This document shows, in pieces, positions 28,136 through 41,616 of a DNA stretch of 51,855 nt (positions are counted from its first letter, which is position 1; every line of letters begins with the position of its first letter). Source of the DNA: a bacterium (lineage in GTDB: Bacteria; UBA9089; JASEGY01). The translations under genes and the position numbers were made by a program. The DNA lies in the NCBI GenBank assembly GCA_040753085.1, contig JBFMHI010000007.1, positions 1 through 51,855 of the forward strand, read 5' to 3'. Below the pieces are notes generated by a model. The model ran no database searches and was not told the DNA's origin. It saw only the letters and a program-made list of their open reading frames with translations.

Positions 28136-28309
28136 ATAAAGTTTATCCTTCAATCTTCTATCTTTTTGAGGAATTACTATCAATAAATCGTAGTCTGAAT
28201 TGGGCCTGGCAGTTCCCCTTACCTGTGATCCAAAGAGATATATAGTATCAATCTCATCTCTAAAATCCTGAATTCTCTCTAAGAATAAGGCAATAACCTT
28301 ATCGTCCAT
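28136..28309 (-). pseudogene. Truncated MNT antitoxin gene (duplicate of 29915-30229)
   Basis: Residues 1-58 match the N-terminus of the intact MNT gene (LFGSQVRGTARPNSDYDLL, GS...DxD site) with identical DNA over the coding part. The copy ends abruptly at the edge of MITE A copy 2, giving three foreign residues before a stop. The third acidic strand and C-terminus are missing, so it is not expected to be active. The duplication extends upstream through the hairpin element at 28334-28467. Confidence 0.8.
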
Positions 28310-28333
28310 ATCTTGTCTCCTGATTTTCGATGT

Positions 28334-28467
28334 TCAAGTTTTTTTATAATCCCTTGATTTCATTGGGCTTACATTGGACTCAAAAAAGAAGAAGGGTAGC
28401 AGATTAAAATCAAGGGAAATCAGATACTTACGTCGTTTCCCTTCTTTTTGGGACTTCAAAAACTTGA
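28334..28467. repeat. Hairpin element B, copy 1
   Basis: The ends TCAAGTTTTT and AAAAACTTGA are inverted, and inner segments (CCCTTGATTT/AAATCAAGGG and GGACTCAAAAA/CTTTTTGGGAC) also pair, forming a long imperfect hairpin. The copy at 30254-30386 is about 95% identical. It stands just upstream of both MNT copies and was duplicated with them. Confidence 0.6.
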
Positions 28468-28650
28468 TATAATATCTTCTTTTGCTAATATCTTTAATGA
28501 GTCCAAATTGAAGATACTTTCATTTTTTCAGAATTATACCTCATTTTTAAGAAAAAGATAAAGTAAATTTTTTAGTCATGAATAAGAATATTTAACAGTG
28601 ATTTGAACGAGACTTATACGAGACATTACAAGAGTATATTTTGATTATTT
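28468..28650. other. Intergenic, AT-rich, nothing recognised
   Basis: This stretch lies downstream of hicA and upstream of element B. It is AT-rich with no gene, hairpin or repeat that I can support. Confidence 0.4.
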
Positions 28651-29914: not shown

Positions 29915-30229
29915 TTATTCAATCTTTATACCTTCTCTCAAGATATTCTCCATAAATGGAGTGGGAATCTGCGATAAATAATCAAAGTCTTCCCTTTTTA
30001 GGATCTTAAGTGAAATATCCGTTCCCGTTTCGCATAAGATATCAACAACCACATCATAAAGTTTATCCTTCAATCTTCTATCTTTTTGAGGAATTACTAT
30101 CAATAAATCGTAGTCTGAATTGGGCCTGGCAGTTCCCCTTACCTGTGATCCAAAGAGATATATAGTATCAATCTCATCTCTAAAATCCTGAATTCTCTCT
30201 AAGAATAAGGCAATAACCTTATCGTCCAT
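29915..30229 (-). CDS. MNT nucleotidyltransferase antitoxin, intact copy
   Basis: 104 residues. LFGSQVRGTARPNSDYDLLI is the G-S-x-x-R-G-x-A-R-x-x-S-D-x-D motif of minimal nucleotidyltransferases; DISLKILKREDF carries the later strand. AGGAGA lies seven bases before ATG 30229. Its partner HEPN gene is broken by element C, and its first 58 codons are duplicated at 28136-28309. Confidence 0.82.
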   Translation of the reverse strand: MDDKVIALFLERIQDFRDEIDTIYLFGSQVRGTARPNSDYDLLIVIPQKDRRLKDKLYDVVVDILCETGTDISLKILKREDFDYLSQIPTPFMENILREGIKIE

Positions 30230-30253
30230 ATCTTGTCTCCTGATTTTTAATGT

Positions 30254-30386
30254 TCAAGTTTTTTTATAATCCCTTGATTTCATTGGGCTTACATTGGACT
30301 CAAAAAGAAGAAGGGTAGCAGATTGAAATCAAGGGGAATCAGATACTTACGTCGTTTCCCTTCTTTTTGGGACTTCAAAAACTTGA
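30254..30386. repeat. Hairpin element B, copy 2
   Basis: Inverted ends TCAAGTTTTT and AAAAACTTGA with internal pairing as in copy 1 at 28334-28467. The two copies differ by a few substitutions and one base of length. The remaining gap to 30495 contains no gene that I can support. Confidence 0.6.
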
Positions 30387-30495
30387 TCATCGAGTGATTA
30401 GTATCCTTCCCACTCGAGTCTGAGGCCCCAAGATAGCGATATTCTTCTTTTAAGGCCATGACAAGCCGTTTGCTTAGAGTTAATGACCGCTTCTG

Positions 30496-37801: not shown

Positions 37802-38113
37802 TTAAGCCGAAGGGTGCTGTTTGTCAGGCACTAATTGAATCTTCAACTGTGCATCCAGCGCACGCGCCAGTCGGTACAGAAATTCGATCGAGCCAAGTTG
37901 CCCGTGTTCCAGACGGGAGATGCGGGGCTGCTGGGTGCCTACTTTTTCAGCTAGCGCATGCTGACTGAGTCCCTTCTTAAGCCGTAAGTCAATTAACTGA
38001 CGGATGAAATTGAACTCTGATTCCAATGCTTTATATTCAGCACGAAATTCAGGGTCTTCCATTTGTTTGGCAGTGTACTCGTCGAGAGAGTACGTGCTCG
38101 CCGATGGGTTCAT
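37802..38113 (-). CDS. XRE-family HigA-like antitoxin
   Basis: About 103 residues. FIRQLIDLRLKKGLSQHALA, EKVGTQQPRISRLEHG is a Cro/CI-type helix-turn-helix. ATG 38113 is preferred (AAGGTGAG immediately upstream, one base after the toxin stop); TTG 38143 would overlap the toxin. With the upstream gene it forms a HigB-HigA-type module in toxin-first order; the protein would neutralise the toxin and repress the promoter. Confidence 0.8.
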   Translation of the reverse strand: MNPSASTYSLDEYTAKQMEDPEFRAEYKALESEFNFIRQLIDLRLKKGLSQHALAEKVGTQQPRISRLEHGQLGSIEFLYRLARALDAQLKIQLVPDKQHPSA

Positions 38114-38114
38114 C

Positions 38115-38363
38115 TCACCTTTCTCCTTCCCTTCTTTCGTCAAGCAATTCGTCCATTCGCCATAGGGCTATTTCGATCTCTCGTCTCGGTGTCTTCCGGG
38201 TCTTCTTCTTGAAGATGTGCAGCAATACAAACCGCCGCTTGACACGAGCGAAGTAAAGCACACGATATTCAATCCGACCAAATGAAATACGCAGTTCCCA
38301 TAGCTTGCCTTCCAGATGACGGGCGTATGGCATCTGTAGATCAATGCCGTTCTTTATCTTCAT
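38115..38363 (-). CDS. HigB/RelE-like toxin (Gp49 family), probably N-terminally truncated
   Basis: 82 residues. MPYARHLEGKLWELRISFGR, then IEYRVLYFARVKRRFVLLHI and FKKKTRKTP match the core and C-terminus of phage-derived Gp49/HigB toxins that cleave ribosome-bound mRNA. The family is usually about 110 residues with a preceding helix region; here an in-frame TGA lies 7 codons before ATG 38363, so about 30-40 residues are missing. It follows the PaREP1 gene by 7 bases. Confidence 0.75.
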   Translation of the reverse strand: MKIKNGIDLQMPYARHLEGKLWELRISFGRIEYRVLYFARVKRRFVLLHIFKKKTRKTPRREIEIALWRMDELLDERREGER

Positions 38364-38370
38364 CTTCTTG

Positions 38371-38748
38371 CTACTTATTTTTCAATATTTCTTTTATTTT
38401 ATCATAAAATGCCTTTACCTCGCAAGCATAATCCTCTACCTCTCTTTTGTTAAGCCATCCTTCGTAAAAATTTGTGTGCAACATACCTGCCAAACCAAAC
38501 TCTTTTCTCAAAATAGGTTCTTTTTCTTCTTCAGAAAGCCTATCCGCCGCCTCAAATAGCCAGGCATGACCGTTATGCTGTATGCCTTTGGCAGTTGCCC
38601 AGGCCTTTAGCATTTGTGTTGCTGCACCCCAGTATTTCTCTCCTGCTTGACGCAAATAACCCGCTTCAAACTCCTTTTCGCCTTGCTGTAAGTATCTCTC
38701 TGCCTGAGCTATATATCGGCTTACCTTATTGTCCTTGGTCGCCTTCAT
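38371..38748 (-). CDS. PaREP1/HEPN-like protein
   Basis: 125 residues, all-helical. YLQQGEKEFEAGYLRQAGEK then YWGAATQMLKAWATAKGI is the PaREP1 signature, a HEPN-superfamily group abundant in archaea. The R-x4-H nuclease motif is not evident, so RNase activity is uncertain. It has a strong GAGGAGG site seven bases before ATG 38748 and is preceded by leader element A. It is immediately upstream of the HigB-like gene and may be co-regulated with it. Confidence 0.7.
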   Translation of the reverse strand: MKATKDNKVSRYIAQAERYLQQGEKEFEAGYLRQAGEKYWGAATQMLKAWATAKGIQHNGHAWLFEAADRLSEEEKEPILRKEFGLAGMLHTNFYEGWLNKREVEDYACEVKAFYDKIKEILKNK

Positions 38749-38771
38749 CTCTTTTCCTCCTCGTATAATAT

Positions 38772-38829
38772 GAACCCTCTCGGATAATCCAAGGCTTTCT
38801 GTTTACTCATCTTAGTAAAGCTGCCCTAC
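38772..38829 (-). promoter_or_regulatory. Conserved two-hairpin leader, copy A
   Basis: On the minus strand, TTTACT-AAGATG-AGTAAA forms the first stem and CTTGG-ATTAT-CCGAG the second, 24 bases before the PaREP1 gene. Copies B and C precede livK and a MNT gene. In stem 1 the fourth base pair is A-U here and G-C in copy C, a compensatory change that supports RNA pairing. Confidence 0.6.
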
Positions 38830-38937
38830 CCGCCCTTGTGGCTAAGGAGGTAGCTACAACTGCCGATGGATAGAGGGCGCCAGTGGCTCCCTAACGGTGG
38901 CGGATCGGATCGGTCTTGGGATAGGCTCTAAACAGAA
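38830..38937. other. Structured intergenic DNA upstream of leader A
   Basis: CGCCCT near 38831 and AGGGCG near 38874 are inverted around GTGGCT...AGCTAC, forming a possible hairpin. It could terminate livK transcripts or extend leader A. No gene is seen. Confidence 0.35.
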
Positions 38938-40158
38938 TTAAGGCAACCCGGCGGCTGTCTCTGTTTCTACTTCCGGCTCTGTTCCTTCCTCTATCTCCAT
39001 AATCTGCTTTGGAGCCGGCATGAATTTAGCATCTTTGACGATGGCTACATGGATAGGTTTCTTGCAGTCGCCATTGGCATCGAAATAGGTCAGCCCAGTG
39101 ACGCCATCATAGCCGGTTTCAGAGTTGGCCATAGAAGCTAAATGATCCCGGATAGCCTTTCGATCCTGACCCGCCTTCTCAATGGCCGTAGCCGCAATCC
39201 CCACGGCATCATAAGTCAGGGCTGCCCAGGCATCGGGTTCCATCTGATATTCCTGTTGGAACCGGTTGACAAATTCTTCGGCCTTTTTCCCGCCTAACTC
39301 AAAGAGAAAAGGACAGGAGAGGATAGTTCCCTCCGTGGCTTTACCACCAATCTTGATGTAATCAGAAGACAGGATGCCATCGGCGCCTAAAAGCTGGGTT
39401 GACATACCCAGTTCTCTGGATTGAGCCGCAATCTGGGCCGCTTGAGTGTAAAGGCCGGACATAAATATGGCTTCAGGTTTGAGTTGTTTAAATTTAGCCA
39501 ACTGCGGCCTAAAATCAGCCGTGTCTCGTTCGTAAGCCTCTGTGCCTACTATCTCCAGACCTATTCGTTTAGCCTCATTCACAAAGGTATCCTTTAAGCC
39601 GGTGCCGTAGTCATCATTGTCATAAAAGACCGCTATCCGCTTAAGCCCCAGTTTCTCTTTCACATAGTTAGCCATTGATATTCCCTGAAAGGTATCTTCG
39701 TAAATATTTCTGAATGTCCAGTCACTACCTTTGGTTACCGTAGGATTAGTCGAGGCTGGCGAGAGTTCCACTAAGCCGGCTTCTTGATAAATAGGTTTCC
39801 CGGCCAGGGAGCAGGAAGAGTTAAAGTGTCCAATGACAATAAGCACCTCAGGGTTATTCGCAAATTTTTGGGCTACTGTAGCTGCTTCCTGAGGGTTGGC
39901 CACATCATCTTCTTCTATTAATTTAATCTTGATCCCCTTAATTCCCCCGGCGGCATTCAGTTCTTTGACCTTCAATCCAGCCCCACGTTTGATCATCTCA
40001 CCAAATTGGGCATTGTCACCGGTCATAGGCGCCGCCAGCCCCATAGTTATTACCTGCTCTTCCCTTGCCTCTTCCTTCGGCGCACAACCAGGGGAGAAGA
40101 AACCAAAGCCGAGCCATAAAACAATCATCAAACTACGCCAGAAACTTTGAAAAGACAT
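38938..40158 (-). CDS. livK: Branched-chain amino acid-type ABC transporter substrate-binding lipoprotein
   Basis: 406 residues. A signal peptide ends in FFSPGC, a lipobox-like site for lipidation. Two lobes of the Peripla_BP_6 fold follow (VITMGLAAPMTGDNAQFGEM, GHFNSSCSLAGKPIYQEAGL, YDNDDYGTGLKDTFVNEA, YDAVGIAATAIEKAGQD). The C-terminus TEPEVETETAAGLP is acidic and disordered. It captures a branched-chain amino acid or related ligand for LivH and LivM; in this genome it is separated from the permeases by four genes. AAAGGAGG precedes ATG 40158, and leader copy B lies 27-82 bases upstream. Confidence 0.9.
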   Translation of the reverse strand: MSFQSFWRSLMIVLWLGFGFFSPGCAPKEEAREEQVITMGLAAPMTGDNAQFGEMIKRGAGLKVKELNAAGGIKGIKIKLIEEDDVANPQEAATVAQKFANNPEVLIVIGHFNSSCSLAGKPIYQEAGLVELSPASTNPTVTKGSDWTFRNIYEDTFQGISMANYVKEKLGLKRIAVFYDNDDYGTGLKDTFVNEAKRIGLEIVGTEAYERDTADFRPQLAKFKQLKPEAIFMSGLYTQAAQIAAQSRELGMSTQLLGADGILSSDYIKIGGKATEGTILSCPFLFELGGKKAEEFVNRFQQEYQMEPDAWAALTYDAVGIAATAIEKAGQDRKAIRDHLASMANSETGYDGVTGLTYFDANGDCKKPIHVAIVKDAKFMPAPKQIMEIEEGTEPEVETETAAGLP

Positions 40159-40184
40159 TTGAATAAACCTCCTTTTAAAATAAG

Positions 40185-40240
40185 GAACTCTCTCGGATAA
40201 TCCGAGACTCTCTCTTTACTCACCCTATCAAACCTGCCTA
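40185..40240 (-). promoter_or_regulatory. Conserved two-hairpin leader, copy B
   Basis: Same layout as copies A and C: a first stem near TTTGAT/AGTAAA (imperfect here) and a second stem CTCGG-ATTAT-CCGAG, located 27 bases before the livK start and just 5' of its ribosome site. Confidence 0.6.
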
Positions 40241-40337
40241 ATATTTTCCCCCACTTTCTTTACCTAAGATCTCCCAAAAGCTCCCCAAATCTTCTGATCT
40301 TCTCAGCCTCAAAAAGAATCTCCCCTATTCCTTCCCT

Positions 40338-40754
40338 TTATGGTTCTATTAATCTCTCCACCTCTCTTACTATCTCTTGAGATTTATCTATTGATTGTTG
40401 GGCATCAGATTCAAAATAGGCCTCTTCAGGAATTAAAGGCCAAGGGAGACCATTGGGATAGCGCGTAGGAATGTAAAACCTATCCAAGAAAATAGCGTCT
40501 TCTCTAAGAGGAAGCAATCTTTTTTTAAATTCAGTAGAGGTTAATCCTTCAATCATCTTCTCTACTGAATGACCCCAGGGTTCTTCATCGAGATAATACC
40601 AGACTGCCTTCAATGCCTTTTCTGCGCTCTGATGAGTAAAGAAACAGGCAGCAGCAAATCTCTTATTTTCGAGCAAAATCTGGGCGGTCTCCAAATCTAA
40701 CCTCGCTTGCCTAAGCCATCTTAAGGCTTCATCTCTCTGGTTTTCTTTGCTCAT
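40338..40754 (-). CDS. HEPN domain protein
   Basis: 138 residues. EALRWLRQARLDLETAQILL then ACFFTHQSAEKALKAVWYYL is the classical HEPN helix bundle. No R-x4-H-x-Y motif is evident, unlike the two HepT-type proteins in this window, so it may belong to the non-nuclease HEPN branch or use another site. It overlaps the upstream MNT gene by 26 bases. Confidence 0.85.
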   Translation of the reverse strand: MSKENQRDEALRWLRQARLDLETAQILLENKRFAAACFFTHQSAEKALKAVWYYLDEEPWGHSVEKMIEGLTSTEFKKRLLPLREDAIFLDRFYIPTRYPNGLPWPLIPEEAYFESDAQQSIDKSQEIVREVERLIEP

Positions 40755-41088
40755 AGATTATCTTTCCTTCTTTGAGTATTCTTTTAATGAAGGGATTATT
40801 ATTTTTAATCATCCGATTAAACTCTTTAGGGGTATAGACAAGAACCTCTATAGGTAGGTTTATACCCTGAGATAGATCCCCCCATAAGGTCTCTGTCCTC
40901 TCTAAGAAGCGTTTCTTTGTCTCTTTTATAAAGATGAGGTCTAAATCGCTCTTCTTACTCTGAGTCTTGCGACTGAAAGAACCAAAGAGAATCACTCTTT
41001 TAACCCTGTGTTTCTGAGCTATCTTGTTAATCTTATCTAAGATCTCTCTCATCAATGACTCAGCCATCATTATATTCTTTAAAGGCAT
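40729..41088 (-). CDS. MNT nucleotidyltransferase partner of the HEPN protein
   Basis: 119 residues. RVILFGSFSRKTQSKKSDLD then LIFIKETKKRFL carries G-S-x9-D-x-D, and INLPIEVLVYTPKEF gives the third acidic strand. ATG 41088 has no close ribosome site; an AGGAGG lies about 22 bases upstream near 41111-41116, an unusual spacing. Leader copy C precedes it. Confidence 0.83.
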   Translation of the reverse strand: MPLKNIMMAESLMREILDKINKIAQKHRVKRVILFGSFSRKTQSKKSDLDLIFIKETKKRFLERTETLWGDLSQGINLPIEVLVYTPKEFNRMIKNNNPFIKRILKEGKIIYEQRKPER

Positions 41089-41129
41089 TGTGTTATGTGG
41101 TGCAGGAAGCCTCCTCTTTTTCTAAGGGT

Positions 41130-41186
41130 GAACTCTCTCGGATAATCCGAAACACTCTGTTTGCTCATCTTAGCAAACCTGCTTAG
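41130..41186 (-). promoter_or_regulatory. Conserved two-hairpin leader, copy C
   Basis: TTTGCT-AAGATG-AGCAAA forms stem 1 (a G-C pair where copy A has A-U) and TTCGG-ATTAT-CCGAG stem 2. It lies 42 bases upstream of the MNT start. Confidence 0.6.
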
Positions 41187-41616
41187 TGCCTTGTCAAGTT
41201 AGTATTTGTGGGTAAAGCCTCTTTTACCCCTCACCCTACCCTCTCCCCTGAGGGGAGAGGGTAAGTAAGAGAAAGTATATCAAATCATTGTTCCTCTGTC
41301 AAGCAAAATAAGTCTTAAGTATCGACTTTAAAATGCCGATAAAGAAAGAAAAGGGAATACACTAAGCAAGGAGGCTTGTTTTGAGGAAGGAGATCCTCAG
41401 GATAAGTCTCTTTTGTTTAATTAGGCGGCAGATAAAGGCAGATTTTCAGGATTCTTATCCGGCGAATCTGCGAAAATCTGCGTCTCCATCCAGCATCGTT
41501 CTATTTCATCTCACCAGGATTCATACCACCTATCCCAGCCCAATCAACCAGCTATCATTTCAAGTAATTAACCATCATTAGTTACCAATCGCTAAATAAA
41601 CTTAGGAGGGTTTTTT
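41187..41616. other. Intergenic region upstream of the giant surface protein
   Basis: A strong hairpin at 41237-41263 (TACCCTCTCCCC with GGGGAGAGGGTA) is part of a CCCTCACCCTA-type intergenic repeat seen again near 50761. Inverted GCAGATTTTC/GAAAATCTGC units lie near 41440-41480. The strands diverge here, so promoters for both the MNT gene and the giant gene must be in this region; I cannot assign them confidently. AGGAGGG stands seven bases before ATG 41617. Confidence 0.45.

Follow-up and report, generated by a model that had tools for sequence, protein, structure and literature searches.

Hairpin leaders upstream of livK and two neighbouring operons in a UBA9089 genome are truncated ends of a phylum-restricted MITE family in register with the Shine-Dalgarno motif

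Why should a branched-chain amino-acid transport gene and two neighbouring toxin–antitoxin operons share a structured element in their 5′ leaders? The question arises from a stretch of 51,855 nucleotides (hereafter the window; contig JBFMHI010000007.1, positions 1 to 51,855) in a draft genome, G000, of the phylum UBA9089, also named Ca. Omexiota and comprising 19 genomes (PMC11382960). An earlier note on this DNA had described three copies of a two-hairpin leader and proposed a structured element matching no familiar riboswitch class.

The three copies exist, all on the minus strand (A, B and C; Table 1), and CTCGG-ATTAT-CCGAG is common to them, A and C each having a single G·U wobble. The exchange reported in stem 1 is likewise present, as TTTACT/AGTAAA in A versus TTTGCT/AGCAAA in C, and copy B carries TTTGAT/AGTAAA with an A·G mismatch. 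Pfam confirmed the downstream genes as PaREP1-Gp49-HTH (A), LivK (B) and nucleotidyltransferase plus HEPN (C), and the copies bear out the description of a shared 5′ element near the start codon. The note put that distance at 24–42 bases; the measured hairpin-to-start distances are ~30 nt (A), ~33 nt (B) and ~48 nt (C). Three points had been missed: copies occur elsewhere in the genome, the shared block extends upstream in B, and it stops 10–14 nt before the Shine-Dalgarno motif (SD) in all three copies. The start of the MNT gene behind copy C is uncertain, as its SD lies so far from the predicted ATG.

Table 1 Features around the three copies, in window coordinates.
Feature	Position	Strand	Remarks
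Copy A, truncated right end of type III MITE (element positions 147-201)	38772..38825	-	aligned to complete 201-bp G005 copy
Copy A right terminal repeat			TTATCCGAGAGGGTTC, exact; element upstream of PaREP1-HigB-HigA genes
AGGAGG (SD) of PaREP1 gene	38756..38761	-	10 nt beyond copy A end
PaREP1/HEPN-like gene	38371..38748	-	Pfam PF05942, E = 3.8e-19
HigB-like toxin gene (Gp49)	38115..38363	-	Pfam PF05973, E = 4.9e-21
HigA-like antitoxin gene (HTH)	37802..38143	-	Pfam PF01381, E = 2.9e-10
Copy B, truncated right end of type III MITE (element positions 82-201)	40185..40282	-	upstream of livK
AGGAGG (SD) of livK	40168..40173	-	11 nt beyond copy B end; conserved in G001
livK, branched-chain amino-acid binding protein (Peripla_BP_6)	38938..40158	-	Pfam PF13458, E = 6.8e-61
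Copy C, truncated right end of type III MITE	41130..41185	-	upstream of MNT/HEPN pair
AGGAGG, likely SD of MNT gene	41110..41115	-	14 nt beyond copy C end; ~20 nt before predicted ATG
TTGACA, candidate -35 just outside copy C	41192..41197	-	19-nt spacer to TAAGAT, z = 3.1 vs shuffles; putative
TAAGAT, candidate extended -10 (TTTGCTAAGAT) in copy C	41167..41172	-	overlaps stem 1; putative
MNT nucleotidyltransferase gene	40729..41088	-	Pfam PF18765, E = 7.5e-14
HEPN gene	40338..40754	-	Pfam PF05168, E = 3.8e-27

A cis-regulatory RNA formed by the two hairpins, whether riboswitch-like or a protein-binding leader, would fit the leader position, the conservation of hairpin 2 (97% of cells) and the single A-U/G-C exchange in stem 1. 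However, over 12 copies of the window subtype there was no covariation beyond shuffles, the covariation score being reached by 101 of 500 shuffles and the number of two-sided pair changes by 103 of 500, and a structured RNA class is therefore not supported; the pair put forward as compensatory (7–19, the A/C exchange) is itself broken in 4 of 10 copies. Comparison with Rfam agreed with the note that no known class fits, giving no match to the element in the window or in four loci, and this too speaks against such an RNA, as does the fact that other subtypes occupy the same position with different internal sequence and that hairpin 2 can be explained by terminal repeats and duplications, described below. 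We consider a regulatory RNA very improbable. A loop-to-flank pseudoknot seen by eye in subtype I (AACGCT/AGCGTT) was not kept in all copies.

A sequence-only model made from seven copies returned many weak matches limited to its 3′ third. In several families of the phylum these read TTTTATCCGAGAGCGTTC, then ~10 nt of spacer, AGGAGG and a start codon, and upstream of this the sequence differs. Counting both strands revealed a second, outward-facing end (...GGCTTC and similar), typically 150–300 bp away. Among the matches listed, 27 complete elements measure 134–548 bp, mostly 150–300 bp, and carry 16-bp terminal inverted repeats, GAANNCTCTCGGATAA...TTATCCGAGAGNNTTC, with no more than three mismatches over both ends. 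Target duplications of 5 bp, or sometimes 6 bp, are exact in 11 of these 27 element pairs versus 0.6 expected (by permutation, eight of 5 bp with 0.5 expected and three of 6 bp with 0.1 expected), and the flanks agree at four or more of five positions in 13 pairs versus 1.5 expected. Because it has terminal inverted repeats and target duplications, the element is a mobile repeat, and its identity as a family of miniature inverted-repeat transposable elements (MITEs) is strongly supported. The family is short and multi-copy; in G013 there are 97 end matches (at most two mismatches) versus 28 for the reversed pattern. The terminal repeats at complete copies also account for hairpin 2, in which the terminal repeat pairs with a piece of itself that lies inverted inside the element. 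No transposase was found for the family, and a search for an autonomous relative yielded no end pair 0.6–3 kb apart in G013 or among the matches listed, all from draft genomes.

Elements of 134–548 bp are unlikely to encode a protein, and the one open frame noted in the right end is unconserved at the protein level. The block might be read as a leader peptide, [MV]SK[QE]xxSDYPRxF, that is conserved among copies and runs over the start of the following gene: it is open in several copies, and its stop overlaps the next ATG in copy A and in L006. Changes are, however, as frequent at codon position 2 (eight kinds) as at position 3 (six kinds); a TAG interrupts the frame in one copy, an 11-nt deletion breaks it in another, and the G005 copies have no start codon. 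The codon-position counts, the in-frame stop and the frameshift refute this peptide as a general feature, and we regard it as extremely improbable.

The window subtype, type III, is complete in contig C148 of G005 (201 bp, duplication TGTTCT) and nearly complete in C135 of the same genome (211 bp). Copies A, B and C keep merely 54–98 bp of the right end and have the right repeat only, lacking the left terminal repeat (none was found for copy B) and the duplication; their membership therefore rests on homology to complete copies. They match the family at E = 7e-8 to 6e-14, beyond chance similarity. Their 16-nt right ends are the sole matches to TTATCCGAGAGNNTTC in the window with fewer than three mismatches, and match exactly, as TTATCCGAGAGNGTTC. 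The three copies are thus eroded, 5′-truncated right ends from a MITE family restricted to the phylum, and not a structured RNA class.

Within the phylum, of which 19 genomes were searched, four further copies of the window subtype in G000 precede genes for an alpha-amylase, a 4Fe-4S protein, an antitoxin/PIN pair and a second PaREP1 protein, and an rmlD-like gene is preceded by a partial copy that lacks hairpin 2. In G005, which belongs to a different family of the phylum, the subtype stands before two LolA-like genes, a glutamate dehydrogenase gene and a TonB receptor gene, and some contig edges hold shorter copies. Also in this genome, a direct tandem of two type III copies (~180-bp unit) precedes a TonB-dependent receptor gene (L091:1-300, contig C89). 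Across 290 genomes, members of the phylum alone have the 16-mer (at most one mismatch) in abundance, and no genome outside it has more than one match; a two-part pattern scan of genome contigs found UBA9089 plus one apparent chance match, in a Ruminococcaceae MAG (L062). The two-part pattern was absent from viral contigs, where the 16-mer matched only twice and without an SD, and plasmids gave no 16-mer match, such that these searches lend no support to a phage or plasmid origin.

Several other repeats and one known RNA were also observed. A second repeat, CCGTGTCTCTGTGTCTCTGTGGTGAACGATTAC, occurs in both orientations and stands directly where the left part of three type III copies would be (upstream of the copies at L002/L085, L003/L084 and L006/L086). 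At L084, another inverted-repeat element (GGTCATCGTTTCGG...CCGAAACGATGACC) parts MITE copy L003a from the start of the 4Fe-4S gene, and an Acido-Lenti-1 RNA (RF01687) scores above its gathering threshold at L084:3000-3045 (contig C223 of G000). Five G000 loci (L118, L119, L121, L115 and L117) hold a MITE subtype with an extra hairpin (CCTGAAC..GTCAGGAACAGG) beside the right terminal repeat; its SD register is unchanged in most copies (offset 9–11), L115 having a weak motif only, at 14. In the window, a perfect GC-rich palindrome, TACCCTCTCCCCTCAGGGGAGAGGGTA, lies upstream of copy C (41230-41270), and related repeats of the form 'ctcccc...ggggag' are found close to other copies of the MITE (L123, L165 and L170). 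Two near-identical direct repeats of ~330 bp (98–99%) lie 1.9 kb apart at 28136-28468 and 30056-30387.

The most distinctive property of the family is its position relative to the SD. Sites were chosen by their match to the terminal repeat and not by an SD, and the set is large, with at least 42 right ends. Among the matches listed, AGGAGG at five or more of six positions stands beside 39 of the 42 distinct exact right ends, at an offset of 10 nt in 26, 11 nt in eight, 9 nt in two, and 7, 14 and 15 nt once each; one of the three right ends without it is a left end that chances to read NGTTC. Offsets of 10–11 nt thus account for 34 of these 42 ends and offsets of 7–11 nt for 37, compared with 3.8% in shuffled flanks. 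Every one of the 27 complete elements listed has exactly one end 7–12 nt from AGGAGG, and this is the NGTTC end in 23 of them (two, L187 and L190, share flanks and are not independent). The spread is also narrower around the SD (sd 0.95 nt) than around the start codon (sd 2.4 nt). It had been suggested beforehand that a mobile repeat would show itself by copies lying equally outside 5′ untranslated regions; the element is a mobile repeat, but its copies are not so spread, because nearly all right ends directly precede an SD.

The same register could arise if the MITE inserted at random and selection for expression kept those right ends that came to lie beside an SD. In keeping with this, the right end has a conserved -10-like box and some good -35 boxes, an ORF start follows 35 of the 42 right ends among the matches listed, and just two independent insertions beside AGGAGG have no obvious gene start. 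On the other hand, promoter use would not require a spread as tight as the ~1 nt found over dozens of copies, and no complete copy among the matches listed lacks AGGAGG. The identical register is found without the terminal hairpin (L028) and at a motif inside an intergenic repeat that no gene start follows (L187/L190), and it still holds at L211, where the apparent gene begins later; in addition, the seven matches from viral contigs or from beyond the phylum all lack an adjacent SD. The gene-less and late-start loci and the matches outside the phylum favour motif recognition over selection, which we rate as possible but doubtful. The near-fixed orientation and SD distance suggest that the transposon homes on the SD signal, and we hold at even odds that its target selection reads the SD motif itself, in one orientation and ~10 bp 5′ of AGGAGG; in that case it is the transposase that would recognise the motif.

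Orthologous sites indicate whose SD this is. In the congener G001, livK (85% identical protein) lacks the element and has the same SD and start; the two livK leaders share TATTTTAAA(A)GGAGGTTTAT.CAAATG, homology ends at the element boundary, and another repeat stands at the site. Similarly, a gene that we take, from reading by eye, to be rtcB has the element in G013 (duplication TTCTG), whereas in G018 it is without the element and keeps ATAAAAGGAGGTAAACATAAAGATG; the element is absent from G016 and G017 too. As the livK and G018 rtcB leaders retain the SD without the element, the SD belongs to the gene and not to the element. Both orthologues have other sequence at the site and cannot serve as clean examples of its state before insertion.

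The right end may also supply a promoter, which we consider plausible from its sequence. A -10-like box lies 28 nt before the right end in subtype I (TAAAAT) and 36–38 nt before it in subtype III, that of the window (TAAGRT), and candidate -35 boxes accompany it as TTGCAA-N17-TAARAT in three G005 copies, TTGACA-N17-TAAAAT in G001 (contig C108) and TTGACA-N19-TAAGAT in copy C, just overlapping its edge. Promoter scores were clearly beyond shuffles (z > 1.5) in 11 of 40 copies, with a weak signal in most, and do not support a strong sigma-70 promoter for all copies. Should this -10 box be genuine, stem 1 lies partly over promoter DNA and would not be transcribed, leaving hairpin 2 alone in the leader. 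Just downstream of the -10-like box lies a near-perfect 15-bp palindrome, CTCGGATTATCCGAG, which might be taken for the operator of a repressor whose regulon includes the transporter and toxin–antitoxin genes. Other subtypes, however, lack the palindrome at the same position, its distribution is patchy, and the downstream genes (amylase, LolA-like, GDH, TonB receptor and toxin–antitoxin) are functionally unrelated, which makes such a regulon very improbable.

The proximity of the three copies probably has a local origin. The livK-livH junction holds toxin–antitoxin genes in both G000 (PaREP1-Gp49-HTH) and G001 (ParE plus antitoxin), and is therefore a site of repeated insertion, a hotspot inside a transport operon. 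The two modules differ (window 37802-38748 versus L097:872-1401 in G001). Copy A resembles L006 (89% over 148 bp) and, as the likeness reaches into the PaREP1 gene, element and PaREP1 were duplicated as a unit. It is therefore most likely that the clustering reflects local insertions and duplication and not a regulon.

The explanation we prefer, at a probability of about 0.78, is a MITE with SD-registered transposition whose right end then serves as a proximal promoter and leader. The mobility of the family, its boundaries, its restriction to the phylum and its SD register are established by the observations above. A non-autonomous DNA transposon would have spread through UBA9089, inserting in one orientation with its right end ~10 nt upstream of AGGAGG and leaving a 5–6 bp target duplication. 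An insertion at this distance spares the gene's own ribosome-binding site, such that the gene would retain that site while its proximal promoter region and 5′ leader would be new. In copies A, B and C, the right ends may have been retained for their promoter activity while the left halves were lost.

As a kind of element the family is ordinary; its SD register and one-sided orientation are unusual. Tn7-type insertion also combines a 5-bp duplication, a fixed orientation and a fixed distance from a recognised sequence, a likeness of insertion pattern; the terminal repeats differ in sequence, and the apparent target here is a short motif that recurs before numerous genes. Correia elements of Neisseria duplicate TA and have a terminal repeat differing from GAANNCTCTCGGATAA, in contrast to the 5–6 bp duplications and nearly fixed orientation found here. 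In the sections consulted of a published account, Correia elements (CREE) are small, non-coding, multi-copy MITEs with terminal repeats, predominantly located immediately upstream of genes and carrying sigma-70-like promoters (PMC10969869), and thus resemble the present family in size, terminal repeats, copy number and gene-upstream location. Those sections describe the location without a fixed SD distance (PMC10969869), whereas the distance here is nearly constant. The same sections present MITEAba12, BrickBuilt, QMITE1 and SonMITE_1 as promoter-bearing bacterial MITEs (PMC10969869), which are likewise non-autonomous with terminal inverted repeats and promoter-like sequences. Pneumococcal BOX, RUP and SPRITE repeats are also small, intergenic and able to alter the expression of neighbours, but their placement is the opposite, being over-represented between convergent genes and away from upstream regions (PMC3049150). 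SD-registered insertion in one orientation was not found for any promoter-bearing MITE in the literature searched.

Conserved structured leaders in uncultured genomes can thus be transposon ends, and should be read with that caution. Promoter-carrying MITEs are already known; what is unusual here is that every complete copy among the matches listed lies 7–12 nt, usually 10–11 nt, from AGGAGG in a near-fixed orientation. If the targeting is true, the family would constitute a self-spreading, gene-safe mobile promoter, a mobile element for which a universal gene-start sequence is a safe place to land, and a profitable one, and it would show how regulatory DNA gets rewired across a whole phylum.
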